A stretch of DNA of 64,000 bases. Origin: Halorubrum salsamenti. GTDB lineage: Archaea; Halobacteriota; Halobacteria; Halobacteriales; Haloferacaceae. Positions 58,188-64,000 of the stretch are shown piece after piece. Under the pieces are notes generated by a model, which did no database searches, was not told where the DNA came from, and saw nothing but the letters and a program-made list of their open reading frames with translations. The position numbers and the translations under genes are program-made. The stretch lies in assembly GCF_007671685.1 (NCBI RefSeq), contig NZ_VCNL01000004.1, forward strand, positions 186,001-250,000, written 5' to 3'. The stretch's first letter is position 1. Every line of letters begins with the position of its first letter.

Positions 58188-59822
58188 TCAATCGTCCCCC
58201 TTGTAGACGAGCGCTTCGGCGAGCGAATCGGACTTACATCCCGTGCTCAGCCCGATACGGAGGCCGTTGTTGTCGGCACCGGTTCGGTCCCGTAGCGGTA
58301 GCAGATCGTCGAGAACCGACGCCGAGATCAGCATCGTCGAGATCGGCCAGGCCTTCGGCCCGAACTGGAGCGATTCTTCGAGAACGTCGCCGCGAACGCC
58401 CGGATCCGGAAGTCGGACGCCCTCGTCGGACGCGTAACCGCAGAACGCGACGCCGACGTCGGGAGTCCGTTCGAGTTGCGGGACCTGCGAGGAGAGCTTT
58501 TCGGGATGGAGCCGGTCGTCGTCGTCGAGCAGTTGGACGTGCCTCCCGTCGGCGATCTCGATACCGTGCGTTCGCGCCCGGTTTGCACCGCGTCGTTCGG
58601 TGTGCTCGACGTATTCCGTGTCATATCTCTCGGCGACCGGGCGCGCATTTCCGGTTCCGGAATCGTCGACGACGATGGTCTCGACCGGAGCGTAGCGCTG
58701 GTCCCGAACGCTTTCGATGGCCGTAGCGAGCCGTTCGTTTCGGTTGGACGTCGGGATAACGACCGACACGAGCGGTCCCGGTCGGGCACGCGAGCTGGGC
58801 GATTCCGCACCGCCAGCCGGCGGGATCTCACCGGAGTCTTCCGGTTGCCGGGGAGAGGTCTGATCGCCGTCAACCGAAGGGCCGAACGCCGTTTCAGCCG
58901 GAGAAAGGGCGCCTCCGCCGGCGCCCGAATCGGACGCTTCCTCGGGCGGGTTGGGTTTCGTCCGATCGTCGGTTACCGTCAGCCATGGAACTGTCACGAG
59001 AGCCGGTGTCCGGATCCCCGGCGGATGACCGAACAGCCTGACCGGGAACGGAGCGACGACTTCGCCGACGTGGTTCCCGTGGTCGGAGGTGACGACGATC
59101 CTCTCATCCAACGCGTCGATGAGCTCCTGCACGTACGGCAGCACGAGCCAGAGATTCTCTTCGTACGCCTGTCGGACGCGCTCGGTCGAGTAGGCACCGT
59201 CGCGGAGTGCGTCCCAGACCGGCCGTTCGTCGGCGTCGGAACTCTCCCCCTCTGCGCGCCGTTTCCCCCGCATCCGACCGTGAGCGAGACGCTTGCCGAG
59301 CGGACCGATAAACGGGTAGTGCGGCTGCACGAAATGCGTGATGATCCGGTGGTCGGGGTACCGATCACGCGCCGCTTTGGTTGCGGAGGCCATCGCCGCC
59401 GGCGGGAGCGTCCCGAGGCCGTCGTCCCAATCGGTCTCCCAGACATCGACGATGTCGTGAAAGACATCGTCAAGGTCGACGGGACACCAGTCGTCGACCC
59501 GGTGCATCGGGTTCGCTGTTACGTAGACGGTGTCCTCGTAGGTCTTCCCGTCGAACGTCCGTTCCAGAAACTGCGGTGTTGCGGTCGCGAGCGAAGTTCG
59601 GGCGGACAAGTCGCCGTCGATCCAGTTCTGTCGTTCGAACATATCGAACCGACAGCCGTCCAAGATGACCAGCAGGTCCCACTCCTCGGTCATAACGTCG
59701 CGGCCCGAGGGCGTTCGCCACGAAAAGTACGTTTCCATCGCCAGTTGGATCCCGATTCCGACTGGACGCGGGAGGAAGTCGACGCCGAGGGGTCGGAGCC
59801 GACGGCGGGTCTTTTTGTTCAT
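58188..59822 (-). CDS. Fusion of alkaline-phosphatase-like domain and GT2 glycosyltransferase
   Basis: A 544-residue protein. Residues about 45-285 form an alkaline-phosphatase/sulfatase-superfamily fold: LVILDGCRFD at 51-60, THFVQPHYPF at 162-171 and VVTSDHGNHVGE at 243-254 supply metal ligands. Residues 286-349 are a Pro/Glu/Ser linker. Residues 350-544 form a GT2 glycosyltransferase: VVIPTSNRN, IVVDDSG, and a DDDD acidic motif at 433-436. Compared with the related enzyme at 62113, about 90 C-terminal residues are missing. The start overlaps the upstream gene by four bases (ATGA). It probably modifies surface or exopolysaccharide chains (inference). Confidence 0.82.
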   Translation of the reverse strand: MNKKTRRRLRPLGVDFLPRPVGIGIQLAMETYFSWRTPSGRDVMTEEWDLLVILDGCRFDMFERQNWIDGDLSARTSLATATPQFLERTFDGKTYEDTVYVTANPMHRVDDWCPVDLDDVFHDIVDVWETDWDDGLGTLPPAAMASATKAARDRYPDHRIITHFVQPHYPFIGPLGKRLAHGRMRGKRRAEGESSDADERPVWDALRDGAYSTERVRQAYEENLWLVLPYVQELIDALDERIVVTSDHGNHVGEVVAPFPVRLFGHPPGIRTPALVTVPWLTVTDDRTKPNPPEEASDSGAGGGALSPAETAFGPSVDGDQTSPRQPEDSGEIPPAGGAESPSSRARPGPLVSVVIPTSNRNERLATAIESVRDQRYAPVETIVVDDSGTGNARPVAERYDTEYVEHTERRGANRARTHGIEIADGRHVQLLDDDDRLHPEKLSSQVPQLERTPDVGVAFCGYASDEGVRLPDPGVRGDVLEESLQFGPKAWPISTMLISASVLDDLLPLRDRTGADNNGLRIGLSTGCKSDSLAEALVYKGDD

Positions 59823-60712
59823 GCGAGAGATCGCTGTCGCGAAGCGCCGTCTGTGGGTTGATCCGAGACGTCTCGGAGGTCCGGATGGTCGGTACCAGGA
59901 CGCTCACCGTCGGCCACGGCGCGGCAGGTCCGCAGCCAACCGGCGTGGCGCACGAGGAAGGCCACGGGCACCGCGTCAAGTTCGAGCAGTTTGGCGATGC
60001 AGAGCCGATGTTTCCCGCTGACGAGCAGCAGTTCGCCGTCTCGCCCGACGTCGACGATGATCTCGCGCTCAAGCGCGTCAATGAAGTTCCCGTCGCGATC
60101 ACGGGGCGCGGTCCGCTCTCGATAACTCAGACAGCCGTTCCGCTCCATACTCCGATGGATCCGCTCCAGTTCCCCGCACCGATCGAGGACGTCAGATCGG
60201 GTCTGACAGTCGTGCCAGACGTACTCAGCGCCGTCTTCGAGGCGAGCAATGACGTCTCGGATAAACCGCGTTTCCGTCCACGGTCGGTCGTCGAGAAAGC
60301 GGGCACGAAGCGCCCGGTACAGCGGACTCTCGGCGACGGTGTCGGCGTGGAAGAGCTCCTCCGGTGGGCCGCCGTAGGTCGGTGCGGCCTCATGTGGGCG
60401 CCGATCCCAGTCGCCGTCCCGAACGCTCCCGAACAGCTGGTCCCGGTTCCGCCACGGGGGGTAACACCGCCGCGTGAACCGGCGTATCCGGGACGGAGAG
60501 ACCGATCGGATCTTGAACGGGTCCGACAGCGGCGTACTCTCGTCGAGATCGGTCGGGTATCGTCGCCGGTAATAGGATGGAGCGACAGACCAGTAGACCG
60601 ACTTCGTCAGTGGCGACGCGAGCGGACTTCGAAGGAGGACGTACTCCGATCCGAGACGACAGGTCCCCTTGACTCCTCGATCCGCGTACACGTCAGCGAT
60701 CGCTCCAAGCAT
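59819..60712 (-). CDS. Unknown protein with ParB/Srx-like C-terminal segment, coupled to the fusion glycosyltransferase
   Basis: A 297-residue protein with many aromatic and arginine residues. Residues about 205-255 (REIIVDVGRDGELLLVSGKH then RLCIAKLLELDAVPVAFLVRH) match the strand-GxHR-helix pattern of ParB/sulfiredoxin-like folds, which bind nucleotides. Its TGA overlaps the ATG of the phosphatase/glycosyltransferase fusion. Proteins of this look occur in haloarchaeal glycan regions, but no activity is established. The function is unknown. Confidence 0.65.
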   Translation of the reverse strand: MLGAIADVYADRGVKGTCRLGSEYVLLRSPLASPLTKSVYWSVAPSYYRRRYPTDLDESTPLSDPFKIRSVSPSRIRRFTRRCYPPWRNRDQLFGSVRDGDWDRRPHEAAPTYGGPPEELFHADTVAESPLYRALRARFLDDRPWTETRFIRDVIARLEDGAEYVWHDCQTRSDVLDRCGELERIHRSMERNGCLSYRERTAPRDRDGNFIDALEREIIVDVGRDGELLLVSGKHRLCIAKLLELDAVPVAFLVRHAGWLRTCRAVADGERPGTDHPDLRDVSDQPTDGASRQRSLA

Positions 60713-61075: not shown

Positions 61076-61996
61076 ATGGAACCGAATATGAGGGGCGAGA
61101 CGGTGGCCGAGCCCGTCAACGAGTTAGACGGGAAGGTGACGGCGGTACCGCCTATTGGACTCGGAACGTATCGAACCGGAGGGTACAAGTGCTTTAACGC
61201 CGTTCTGGAGGCTCTCGAGGTCGGCTACCGTCACGTTGACACCGCGATGGCGTACGAGAACGAGGCCGTCGTCGGCCGCGCAATCGAGGCCTCAACGGTC
61301 GATCGCGAAGCCGTGTTCGTCACGACCAAGGTGAAGGGATACGCAGAGTTCTTGGACCGCGATCGACTGACCGAGGCGGTTGAGGGTTCGCTCAAGCGGC
61401 TCGGGATGGATCGAATTGACCTCGTGTTGCTCCACTGGTGGAACCCGGACGGGGACATGGTGGAAGTGTTCGGGGCGCTCTCCGATCTCGTGGAGGACGG
61501 GAAAGTAACCCACGTCGGGGTCAGTAATTTCTCGACCGAGCAACTCGCGCGGGCGATGGACGCTTCCGAGGTCCCGATAGCGACCAACCAAGTCCAGTAC
61601 AACCCGTACTTCCATCAAGACGAGATGCTCTCGTTCTGTCGGGAGCACGACGTGCTGCTGACGGCGTACAGCCCCCTCGCCGCCGGTACCGTCGTCGACG
61701 ACGAGACGCTCACACGGATCGGCGAACGGTACGGGAAGTCGGCCGCACAGGTCGCCCTCAGGTGGCTCGTCCAGCAGGACGGCGTGGTCACGATCCCGAA
61801 GACGACGAGTTCGGACCGTCTGCGGGAGAACCTCGACCTGTTCGACTTCGAACTCACGAACGCCGAGATGGATCGGATCCACGACCTCGAGGGCCCGCTC
61901 TCGTTCCGGCTGACCAACGATCGAGGAGCCGTAACTCGGTTTCGGTCCGCCGTCGGCCCGTACGTGCCGAAGGAGATCCGGGACATGATCCCGTGA
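61076..61996 (+). CDS. Aldo/keto reductase
   Basis: A 306-residue (beta/alpha)8 NADPH-dependent oxidoreductase. The catalytic tetrad is complete: D55 and Y60 in HVDTAMAY, K85 in TTKVKG and H120 in LLHWWNP. NADP-binding signature IPKTTSSDRLREN is near 240. Length fits. The ATG at 61076 is used; another in frame at 61088 is possible. It lies beside glycosyltransferases, but its substrate cannot be predicted. Confidence 0.93.
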   Translation: MEPNMRGETVAEPVNELDGKVTAVPPIGLGTYRTGGYKCFNAVLEALEVGYRHVDTAMAYENEAVVGRAIEASTVDREAVFVTTKVKGYAEFLDRDRLTEAVEGSLKRLGMDRIDLVLLHWWNPDGDMVEVFGALSDLVEDGKVTHVGVSNFSTEQLARAMDASEVPIATNQVQYNPYFHQDEMLSFCREHDVLLTAYSPLAAGTVVDDETLTRIGERYGKSAAQVALRWLVQQDGVVTIPKTTSSDRLRENLDLFDFELTNAEMDRIHDLEGPLSFRLTNDRGAVTRFRSAVGPYVPKEIRDMIP

Positions 61997-62112: not shown

Positions 62113-63042
62113 ATGCCTCCGAAGATATCTGTCATCATTCCGACCTACTATCGGAACAATCTCCTCCCGAAGGCGATCGAGAGCGTCCTCGACCAGGACT
62201 ACGAACCGATCGAGCTGATCGTCGTCGACGACTCCGGAGAGGGGCACGCGGAGCCCGTGATACAGAGGTACGACGAGGTCCAAGGTATCATTCACGAGGA
62301 GAACGGCGACTGGAACGCGGCCTACACGTCCGGGATCGAGGCGTCGACAGGCGAGTACGTTCAGTTCCTCGACGACGACGACGAACTCCTCGAGAGTAAG
62401 TTGACGAAGACGGCCGAGGTACTCCGAGAGAACCCGGACGTCGGGGTCTCGTACTGCGGCGTCATCAAGGGAGGCGAGCGACACTACCCGAAGCCGAAGG
62501 TGTCGGGCGACTTCTTAGAGGAGGCGCTGGCCTTCCAGACGTTCCCGATGTGGACGGGATCGATGCTGATAGAGCGCGATGTCTTGCTCGACTGCCTGCC
62601 GCTCGCGGGAATGGATGAAGACGACGATCTCGGTATCGAGTTGGGCGACACCGACCTGAAGATCGAACTGGCCCGGCGGACGGAGGCCGACTACGTCGAC
62701 GAGTGCCTCGCCGCGTATCGACAGGAGACGAACGGGAAATGGACCGGTCCCCGGCGATTCGAGAAGGTGAAACAGAACATCGAACACCAGCGCGAACTGT
62801 ACGACCAGTATCCGTCGATCCGGCGGGAACTCCTCGAGAACTGGCATCAGCGGCAGGCACGATACTGGCTCGAGGAGAAGACGTGGTCCGCCGAAGCGGT
62901 GTCTCACTTCCTGCAAGCCGCCTACTACGCGAACGGACTCACTAGTCGGTTGAAATGCGGAGCCGGAGCCGCAGCGTCCCTGTTCGGCCGGCCGGGCTGG
63001 AGCGTCGCCTGGGCGGTCCGGAACTCCGTCAGCCATAGCTGA
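62113..63042 (+). CDS. Family 2 glycosyltransferase
   Basis: A 309-residue GT-A enzyme. Motifs ISVIIPTYYRNN at 5-16, LIVVDDSGEG at 35-44 and the acidic motif DDDD at 87-90 (metal/sugar nucleotide) are visible, then a helical C-terminal part. It is a close relative of the second half of the fusion at 58188, including EESLxFxxx..WxxxSMLI spacing. It likely transfers a sugar to a lipid-linked or surface glycan. The long frame from 61762 overlaps the reductase and is not used. Confidence 0.92.
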   Translation: MPPKISVIIPTYYRNNLLPKAIESVLDQDYEPIELIVVDDSGEGHAEPVIQRYDEVQGIIHEENGDWNAAYTSGIEASTGEYVQFLDDDDELLESKLTKTAEVLRENPDVGVSYCGVIKGGERHYPKPKVSGDFLEEALAFQTFPMWTGSMLIERDVLLDCLPLAGMDEDDDLGIELGDTDLKIELARRTEADYVDECLAAYRQETNGKWTGPRRFEKVKQNIEHQRELYDQYPSIRRELLENWHQRQARYWLEEKTWSAEAVSHFLQAAYYANGLTSRLKCGAGAAASLFGRPGWSVAWAVRNSVSHS

Positions 63043-63102: not shown

Positions 63103-64000
63103 ATGCCGGATATACCTCTCCGCGAGAAATTACACGGCCTCTATTTGATCGCGTCGTACAGACCGCGGTTCACCGCCGCGATCGTCGTGTTCAGCGTGTT
63201 GACCGCGCTGCTTGAGGGGATCGGTGTGACCCTGATCGTCCCGCTGATCGAGGTTGCTCAGTCGTCCGGAGCGCCGCCAGACGGCGGTATCGCCGGCGCC
63301 TTCGCACGCGTCTATCAGCTCTTCGGGCTCCCGTTCACGATCGGTTCCATCGTCCTCGGAGTCGGGGTGGTGCTCACCGTGAGATACACGTTCACATTCC
63401 TGACCCAGTGGGCGCGCGTGTATCTACGGACCAACTACGTCGCTGACCTCCAGTCTCGCGGGTTCGAGAACACCTTAGACGCTCGGATCGCCTACTTCGA
63501 CCGCGAGGGATCGGACGACATTCTCAACGCGATCGTCACGCAGGCACAGAAGGCCGGCGAGGCGATCGAGGCGTTCATTCGGGTGTTCCAGAGGAGCATG
63601 CTCATCCTGATGTACCTCGGAATCGCGCTGTACCTCGCTCCGGTCCTGACGGTCGTTTCGGCGGCCTTCGTTGGGCTCTTGACCTTCGGGCTGCGGAACA
63701 CCGTCGAGTCCGCGTACACTATCGGCGACCGCGTCGCCGAGGCCAACGAGCAGATACAGCGGGTCGTTCAGGCCGGCACGCAGGGCATTCGCGAGGTGAA
63801 GACGCTCGGATACGGCGCCGAACTGCGCGACAATTTCGCCGCGGCGATGGAGCAGTACATCGGCTCCTCGATCCGGGTGAAACGCAACGAGGCGCTGATC
63901 GGAAACGTGTACAACCTCTCGATCGCGTTGGTGATATTCGGGTTGATCTACGCTGCGCTCACGCTCACGAGCATGTCGTTCGGTGCGCTCGGGGCGTTCC
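63103..64000 (+). CDS. ABC exporter, transmembrane part (partial, runs off the window)
   Basis: The frame from the ATG at 63103 is open to the window end (299 codons), missing the ATP-binding half. It has hydrophobic segments at about 20-45, 80-108, 155-176, 178-195 and 268-290 with the intracellular coupling-helix sequence IQRVVQAGTQGIREVKTLG typical of type-1 exporters. Position after glycosyltransferases suggests export of a glycan precursor, but other substrates are possible. TATTAACAATTA about 30-35 bases upstream is a likely promoter. Confidence 0.85.
   Translation, partial: MPDIPLREKLHGLYLIASYRPRFTAAIVVFSVLTALLEGIGVTLIVPLIEVAQSSGAPPDGGIAGAFARVYQLFGLPFTIGSIVLGVGVVLTVRYTFTFLTQWARVYLRTNYVADLQSRGFENTLDARIAYFDREGSDDILNAIVTQAQKAGEAIEAFIRVFQRSMLILMYLGIALYLAPVLTVVSAAFVGLLTFGLRNTVESAYTIGDRVAEANEQIQRVVQAGTQGIREVKTLGYGAELRDNFAAAMEQYIGSSIRVKRNEALIGNVYNLSIALVIFGLIYAALTLTSMSFGALGAF

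Follow-up and report, generated by a model that had tools for sequence, protein, structure and literature searches.

The window analysed here, a stretch of 64,000 nucleotides from the haloarchaeon Halorubrum salsamenti, contains a gene whose 297-amino-acid product (called P below, with its relatives forming the P family) very probably adopts the ParB/sulfiredoxin (Srx) fold, as judged from a structural model. P likely serves as an enzyme in the making of glycoconjugates or lipids and not in partition, and there is about an even chance that it is a nucleotide-dependent phosphotransferase of the kinase type, similar to SerK and Srx. The gene is real and under purifying selection, because the ratio of nonsynonymous to synonymous change (dN/dS) is 0.23 in its frame, compared to 1.13 for a long overlapping antisense open reading frame. 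These values, like those below, are simple Nei-Gojobori counts between the window and Halorubrum lipolyticum DSM 21995, which carries the nearest named relative of P (locus L003; 87% identity over 297 codons). The P reading frame begins with ATG and, as a preliminary description of this DNA had stated, its TGA stop (59821-59819) overlaps the ATG (59822-59820) of a gene for a fusion protein; the same 4-base ATGA overlap is kept in H. lipolyticum.

The AlphaFold2 model of P (pLDDT 88.5, pTM 0.86) was built from an alignment of 50 sequences (A1), consisting of the window protein, that of L003 and 48 more from loci of the matching genomes of the same taxonomic family. It shows a ParB/Srx core with a helical insertion of about 100 residues. 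The strands of the model lie at residues 68-71, 76-79, 96-98, 218-222, 228-232 and 248-256, and structure alignments cover P residues from about 66 to 260, yet only 70-90 residues are aligned; from these ranges and strand positions, the helical segment at residues 104-205 is taken to be inserted within the core. A Foldseek search of the PDB with the model returned 68 matches (best E 0.052), and 45 of the 50 listed are ParB, Noc, KorB, PadC, Spo0J, SbnI or sulfiredoxin; the other five of these 50 are entries 2hwj and 1vk1, whose titles name no such protein. VIA-align placed ParB and the Arabidopsis sulfiredoxin at the top with Z 4.8, with SerK (5x0b) at Z 3.5. Most of the rows listed belong to the ParB/sulfiredoxin superfamily, and one entry, at Z 2.3, is clearly unrelated. 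In a viral structure library the best match to the model stands at E 0.004, short of 0.001, and among the 50 matches listed many bear the name ParB or ParB/Sulfiredoxin. No separate helix-turn-helix (HTH) or C-terminal dimerisation domain is present in the model, which has about 41 residues after the core.

Profile comparisons provide further indications of the same resemblance. The family profile has SbnI as its best match among PDB sequences (E 0.03); a match to UDP-2,3-diacylglucosamine hydrolase (E 0.21), which involves another stretch of the profile, was taken as chance. A single hhalign comparison with the haloarchaeal CBS-ParB family gave E 1.8e-6 over the segment GRDGELL..DGRHR. Both the SbnI and the CBS-ParB alignments span VSGKHRLCIAKLLEL (P residues 231-245), the segment in which the preliminary description had recognized a ParB/Srx-like nucleotide-binding core. 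A ParB-like PHROG family is matched by six of the 50 P-family members, at best with E 0.0011; the protein of the window matches no PHROG, and four of the seven PHROG families matched by P members are not ParB-like. Searched alone, the window protein found no family in Pfam or NCBIfam at E up to 1, and its one match among PDB sequences is at chance level (E 0.45). The Pfam ParB model PF02195, which served as the domain query in a 2025 survey of ParB-fold proteins (PMC12704722), matches none of the 50 members at E up to 1. This failure is partly a limit of the model, because PF02195 also finds nothing in the window's genome, despite the CBS-ParB gene there. The fold is well supported by the agreement among structural matches that are individually weak. 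The resemblance to ParB and Srx, for which the preliminary description had suggested structure prediction and a fold search, exceeds chance and was recovered by the fold search, the SbnI profile match, the PHROGs and the CBS-ParB comparison, each of them modest alone.

Within residues 231-245 lies the GxxR sequence of P, G233-K-H-R236, in which the glycine is found in 99 and the arginine in all of 102 aligned rows. GxxR is described in the ParB-fold survey as the "P motif" (Box II), and its arginine is required for nucleotide binding in those ParB-fold proteins that bound a nucleotide (PMC12704722). Conservation elsewhere in P is also high, in a set of 103 rows that contains repeated places: like R236, H256 and W102 are present in 102/102 rows, W145 in 103/103, R255 in 101/102, P73 in 100/102 and R224 in 97/102. 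An acidic residue occupies D103 in 100/102 rows and E183 in 102/103, and E147, T148, D225, G226 and W259 are highly conserved as well. Several of the conserved residues, many of them charged, fall in the insertion and after the core, and from sequence this pattern would resemble an active site and not the surface of a DNA clamp.

To analyze the genomic setting of P, hidden Markov models were made from the first 41 P loci and run on another 19 P loci and on 20 control regions. They detected a glycosyltransferase (GT) or Wzx flippase gene in 14 of the 19 test loci versus two of the 20 controls (Fisher p 7e-5). The test loci, of which two are only 12 kb long, were hand-picked from the list of matches, and multi-copy places were somewhat favoured; the controls came from first-set genomes, different from the genomes of the test loci, with 19 located at about 0.37 of the contig and one at 0.12. 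The most frequent Pfam families among 125 proteins encoded next to P include GT groups 1/4, 2 and 61, epimerases, ABC (ATP-binding cassette) exporters, flippases and sulfatases, in a count that was made without a control and with a gene caller that erred in some loci. ParA-like genes were searched for in the window's genome, and PF13614 has no match on the 398-kb contig of P (C16) and 14 matches elsewhere. The view that the setting of P is glycan synthesis, not chromosome partition, which had been expressed from the window alone, agrees with these results, and a role in chromosome partition was rejected on the basis of the missing PF13614 match on the contig and the missing HTH in the model.

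The partner of P in the ATGA overlap, called a fusion enzyme in the preliminary description, proved to be a fusion of an alkaline phosphatase (AP)-superfamily domain with a family 2 glycosyltransferase (GT2; PF00535, E 8.3e-25). The fusion is present in both the window and L003, with 79% identity. The AlphaFold2 model of its AP domain (pLDDT 87.8; Foldseek best E 1.1e-6) is closest by VIA-align to the catalytic domains of EptA, EptC and MCR (Z 16.2 over 209 residues, root-mean-square deviation 4.2, 13% identity). Among AP family members, threonine or serine at position 82, D55, D247 and H248 are found in 23/23 and H266 in 21/22; by analogy with AP motifs, we take the residue at 82 to be the putative nucleophile and the others to resemble metal ligands. 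EptA/MCR transferases have an N-terminal membrane domain. The partner, with only about 46 residues before its AP fold, has no such domain, and it carries GT2 after the AP fold; being fused to GT2, it is presumably cytoplasmic. Formylglycine sulfatases carry the motif C/S-x-P-x-R. At the corresponding place in the alignment of AP members (A4) this motif was not found, and most rows have S-x-G/A-S/T-x-T/S-x-E/Q-F; Pfam Sulfatase matches three of the 23 members weakly (best E 4e-4). The AP family as a whole (58941-59822 (-) and its relatives) has weak Pfam matches only, with PglZ in 16/23, and a link to BREX that the PglZ match might bring to mind was set aside, the match being read as a signal of the AP fold only.

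The window's P protein belongs to a subclade of six members (SH-aLRT 99, in a quick tree with SH-aLRT as its sole support measure), and in all six an AP domain is encoded beside P. In the window and H. lipolyticum the AP gene overlaps P and is fused to GT2, and in the other four it is a separate, divergent gene. Because the adjacency is kept through different gene orders, it speaks for a functional link between P and the AP domain. A seventh AP-P locus, L055, is found elsewhere on the tree, with the two genes co-directional. The seven do not include L058, whose neighbour is a Pfam sulfatase and gave a weak match of sulfatase type (E 7e-6), nor a further adjacent AP gene in genome G118, about 0.7 kb from P. 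Six of the 20 loci behind the AP profile are P loci, and remote AP genes may escape it; counts for AP and for the CDP-alcohol phosphotransferase described below come from six-frame searches, and the gene caller missed AP in L035 and L036. Over 176 columns, the GT2 half of the fusion shares 47% identity with the window's stand-alone GT2 (62113-63042). Beyond them it diverges, without the GDTDLKIELA segment or the C-terminal region of that neighbour, and it evolves faster, at a dN/dS of 0.39 versus 0.24. This half may be a degenerate leftover. A pairing of P with a working glycosyltransferase is doubtful because of the missing segment and the faster evolution, so that P and the AP domain would be the relevant pair. 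The preliminary description had suggested that the two proteins may form a new surface-modification pair and had proposed a neighbourhood survey for co-occurrence with phosphatase-like or GT2 genes. The recurrence of the pair held within one subclade, in two gene orders; it did not hold across most of the P family, with AP in 7/41 and 0/19 loci of the two sets by profile, and of the loci that were read, the window and H. lipolyticum alone have the overlapping AP-GT2 fusion. Surface modification may be what the pair does.

A second kind of partner is found in a group of P proteins that are 44-59% identical to the P of L111. Here a cytidine diphosphate (CDP)-alcohol phosphotransferase gene adjoins P in seven of nine further loci, plus L111 itself; five of the seven cases are co-directional, with a 4-base overlap with P in G189. 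With the L102 and L111 proteins as queries (E 1e-6; L186, the same place as L102, counted once), no such gene was detected in 57 other P loci or in the 20 controls. Two different kinds of phosphate-handling enzyme adjoin P, in two groups. The conserved operon at L111:5201-11528 and L102:5886-12541 contains genes for a methyltransferase, GT4, a 6-pyruvoyl-tetrahydropterin-synthase-like (PTPS-like) protein, a zinc dehydrogenase, the CDP-alcohol phosphotransferase, P and DUF7475. GTP cyclohydrolase III is also encoded in L102 and in L065, a locus of the same genus.

As a kinase-type enzyme, P would most likely bind a nucleoside tri- or diphosphate (NTP or NDP) through the GxxR motif at residues 233-236 and move phosphate to a hydroxyl group. 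The acceptor, a sugar, a polyol or a lipid-linked molecule destined for lipid head groups or surface glycans, would be held and activated by the helical insertion together with conserved acidic residues (D103, E147 and E183), and the partners would use or remove the phosphate, the EptA-like AP domain doing so in the window's subclade and the CDP-alcohol phosphotransferase in the other group. The analysis itself gives the predicted fold, the motif, its conservation and the neighbours; we infer the nucleotide binding, the catalysis, the acceptor and the order of steps. SerK, SbnI and Srx provide precedents as ParB-fold enzymes that bind adenine nucleotides (PMC12704722; PMC5120207). In its boldest form, the proposal would make P the founder of a new class of ParB/Srx-fold kinases, which might depend on CTP or ADP. 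They would phosphorylate sugars, polyols or acceptors linked to lipid in the synthesis of archaeal surface glycans and lipid head groups, together with phosphodiester-handling partners (EptA-like AP domains and CDP-alcohol phosphotransferases); this is a tentative proposal, somewhat likelier to fail than to hold as a whole.

Several points weigh against a kinase-type role. The single structural matches are weak: none of the 68 Foldseek matches reaches E 0.001, and the best VIA-align Z of 4.8 falls in the range flagged as middling by the tool. Of 28 purified ParB-fold proteins, 17 bound no NTP in vitro (PMC12704722). The counterpart of SerK Glu30, the catalytic glutamate mutated in 5x0g, 5x0j and 5x0k, could not be placed in P, where D103, E147 and E183 are candidates, and P has its insertion inside the core and a short tail in place of the long C-terminal domain of SbnI and SerK. 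Gene neighbourhood is no proof of the activity of P, and by the Markov models five of the 19 test loci have no GT or Wzx gene. By profile, the AP gene is absent from 34 of the 41 first-set loci and from all 19 of the second set, as it is from the 20 controls. The AP family is common, occurring in 147 of 167 genomes of the taxonomic family with up to 11 matches per genome (G120), so that in glycan regions P and AP genes should sometimes be neighbours in any case. The EptA group is followed at Z 13-14.5 by sulfatases (from about 14.4 down) and phosphonate hydrolases, about 2 Z lower, and the fold cannot tell the partner's substrate. Finally, two of the seven CDP-alcohol phosphotransferase genes lie on the strand opposite to P.

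Among the alternatives, it is unlikely that P is some other nucleotide-using enzyme on this fold and no kinase, such as one that activates an alcohol or acid with CTP in the manner of a nucleotidyl or ligase-type enzyme. ParB-fold proteins bind CTP, ATP or GTP, an archaeal SerK-like protein bound CTP (PMC12704722), and the CDP-alcohol phosphotransferase beside P would suit such an activity; that pairing is seen in one P group only, however, and the small-molecule enzymes of the fold cited in PMC12704722 (SerK, SbnI and Srx) move phosphate. A somewhat less probable idea is that P acts as a nucleotide switch, either to regulate the glycan cluster or to position the cluster's enzymes at the membrane, with no part in glycan catalysis. 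ParB, Noc, VirB and DndB are indeed switches or repressors (PMC12704722), and a basic amphipathic N-terminal stretch was scored in 25 of 50 P members versus 24 of 226 control proteins, in an exploratory test on related rows with a HELIQUEST-like score. The window protein itself falls below the membrane threshold (1.17 vs 1.34), the model has no separate HTH or C-terminal dimerisation domain, many conserved charged residues lie in the insertion and the C-terminus, and the presence of several diverged copies, two or more in 15 of 60 loci, would fit substrate diversity better than a switch.

A role as a kinase of free serine (or another amino acid), equivalent to SerK or SbnI and supplying O-phosphoserine, is improbable. 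P shares the GxHR motif and the surrounding strands with SbnI, its top PDB profile match, and the motif is common to the CBS-ParB proteins as well. The layout differs from that of SerK and SbnI, and SerK 5x0b aligns over residues 6-95 of 241 to residues 36-258 of the P model. Furthermore, P sits in glycan or lipid operons, and a central metabolic step would not be expected of a gene that is patchy and often multi-copy in glycan clusters. Another protein, CBS-ParB (SerK-like), represented by L092:2105-2974, was found in all 59 haloarchaeal genomes searched, and CBS-ParB is likely a core haloarchaeal gene. The ParB-CBS proteins of haloarchaea have been described (PMC12704722), and the family is itself weakly called ParB by Pfam (ParBc_2, E 0.025). 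In contrast to P, whose likeness to it lies in the GRDGELL..DGRHR segment, CBS-ParB has N-terminal CBS domains; no CBS match was found in any of the 50 P members. With sulfiredoxin, P shares a compact fold without an HTH. Srx chemistry moves phosphate, and the catalytic cysteine of Srx resides in the motif that is GKHR in P; P has no cysteine there, carries the insertion, and was seen in no peroxiredoxin setting. Least probable is that P acts in partition or as a nuclease of the ParB type and is found in a glycan region by chance. P resembles the CTP-switch domain of bacterial ParB and Noc (PF02195) in its core fold and GxxR motif, and the PHROG names point to a ParB-like partition nuclease; against this stand the absence of HTH and dimerisation domains from the model, of any ParB call by Pfam or NCBIfam and of a ParA-like gene on the contig, and the recurring glycan setting.

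The P family is patchily distributed, with matches at E <= 1e-3 in 62 of 170 genomes of the same taxonomic family. At E <= 1e-5 the profile matches 119 of 292 genomes of the class; ten of these have a best match of only E 1e-6 to 1e-5, and the one in G174 is the CBS-ParB protein, so that about 109 is a safer count. Among 246 genomes sampled across the phylum, G540 and G394, both outside the class, match the profile. Sixteen plasmid records, all haloarchaeal, also match, with the protein annotated as 'hypothetical protein' in 13 and lacking annotation in three. A viral origin was rejected: none of 50,697 phage records was matched by the window protein in tblastn, and a scan of viral contigs returned 14 pattern matches, none a P relative. 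A contig scan for near-exact peptides found only L003, by a method that cannot show absence elsewhere. A literature search judged mainly by titles and abstract openings, with subscription papers largely outside it, found no description of the family, which is no proof of absence. P genes were dropped in L035, L036 and L039 by the gene caller, and several were shortened.

P represents a family that is common in haloarchaea, often multi-copy and tied to glycan or lipid genes, not to DNA segregation. Should it prove to be a new class of kinase, the ParB fold would enter glycobiology, and phosphorylated surface glycans would be predicted in haloarchaea; archaeal surface phosphorylation would become testable through a defined gene and a one-residue mutant, R236A.

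Table. Positions of P, its partner and neighbouring genes in the window, with the basis of each assignment
Feature	Position	Strand	Basis
P gene, ParB/sulfiredoxin-fold protein with helical insertion	59819..60712	(-)	Open reading frame, dN/dS, AlphaFold2 model, fold matches
Residues 231-245 of P, VSGKHRLCIAKLLEL	59978..60022	(-)	Sequence; SbnI and CBS-ParB alignments
GxxR phosphate motif GKHR, residues 233-236	60005..60016	(-)	Conservation of G233 and R236
C-terminal part of ParB/Srx core, residues 218-256, ending in R255-H256	59945..60061	(-)	Model strands; conservation of R255 and H256
N-terminal part of ParB/Srx core, residues 66-79	60476..60517	(-)	Structure alignments, mostly about 66-260; conservation of P73
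Helical insertion within core, residues 104-205; conserved W145, E147, T148, E183, G193	60098..60403	(-)	Model secondary structure; conservation
ATGA stop/start overlap	59819..59822	(-)	Window and L003 sequences
Partner gene, 544-amino-acid AP-superfamily and GT2 fusion	58188..59822	(-)	Open reading frame; Pfam; L003 copy
AP-superfamily domain of partner, residues 47-285; D55, T82, D247, H248, H266	58968..59684	(-)	AlphaFold2 model; EptA/MCR fold match
Shortened GT2 domain of partner, residues 350-544	58191..58775	(-)	PF00535; dN/dS
Aldo/keto reductase, divergent from P	61076..61996	(+)	PF00248, E 1.4e-64; adjoins P in L003 too
Stand-alone GT2 glycosyltransferase	62113..63042	(+)	PF00535, E 1.8e-26
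ABC transporter, MsbA/HepA type, truncated by window end	63103..63999	(+)	PF00664, E 5e-13

The ABC transporter at the window end, which like the aldo/keto reductase and the stand-alone GT2 lies upstream of P and divergent from it, is also matched by a HepA-family model (E 9e-23), far under the cut-off of that model. In the P loci at large, a family of proteins of about 640 amino acids (cluster c5, e.g. L069:3081-4997) occurs in 11 of the 41 first-set loci, and its representative has no Pfam match at E <= 1e-4. The multi-copy loci include L050, which holds five P matches; at L050:5190-11819 and L095:6258-13169 as many as five matches, fragments included, follow one another in about 7 kb, which suggests diversification by acceptor. 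The window's genome has a second P gene at L071:9082-9972 (G000:C1), and in the closely similar locus L070 the flanking genes encode beta-helix/pectate-lyase-like and C5-epimerase-like proteins.

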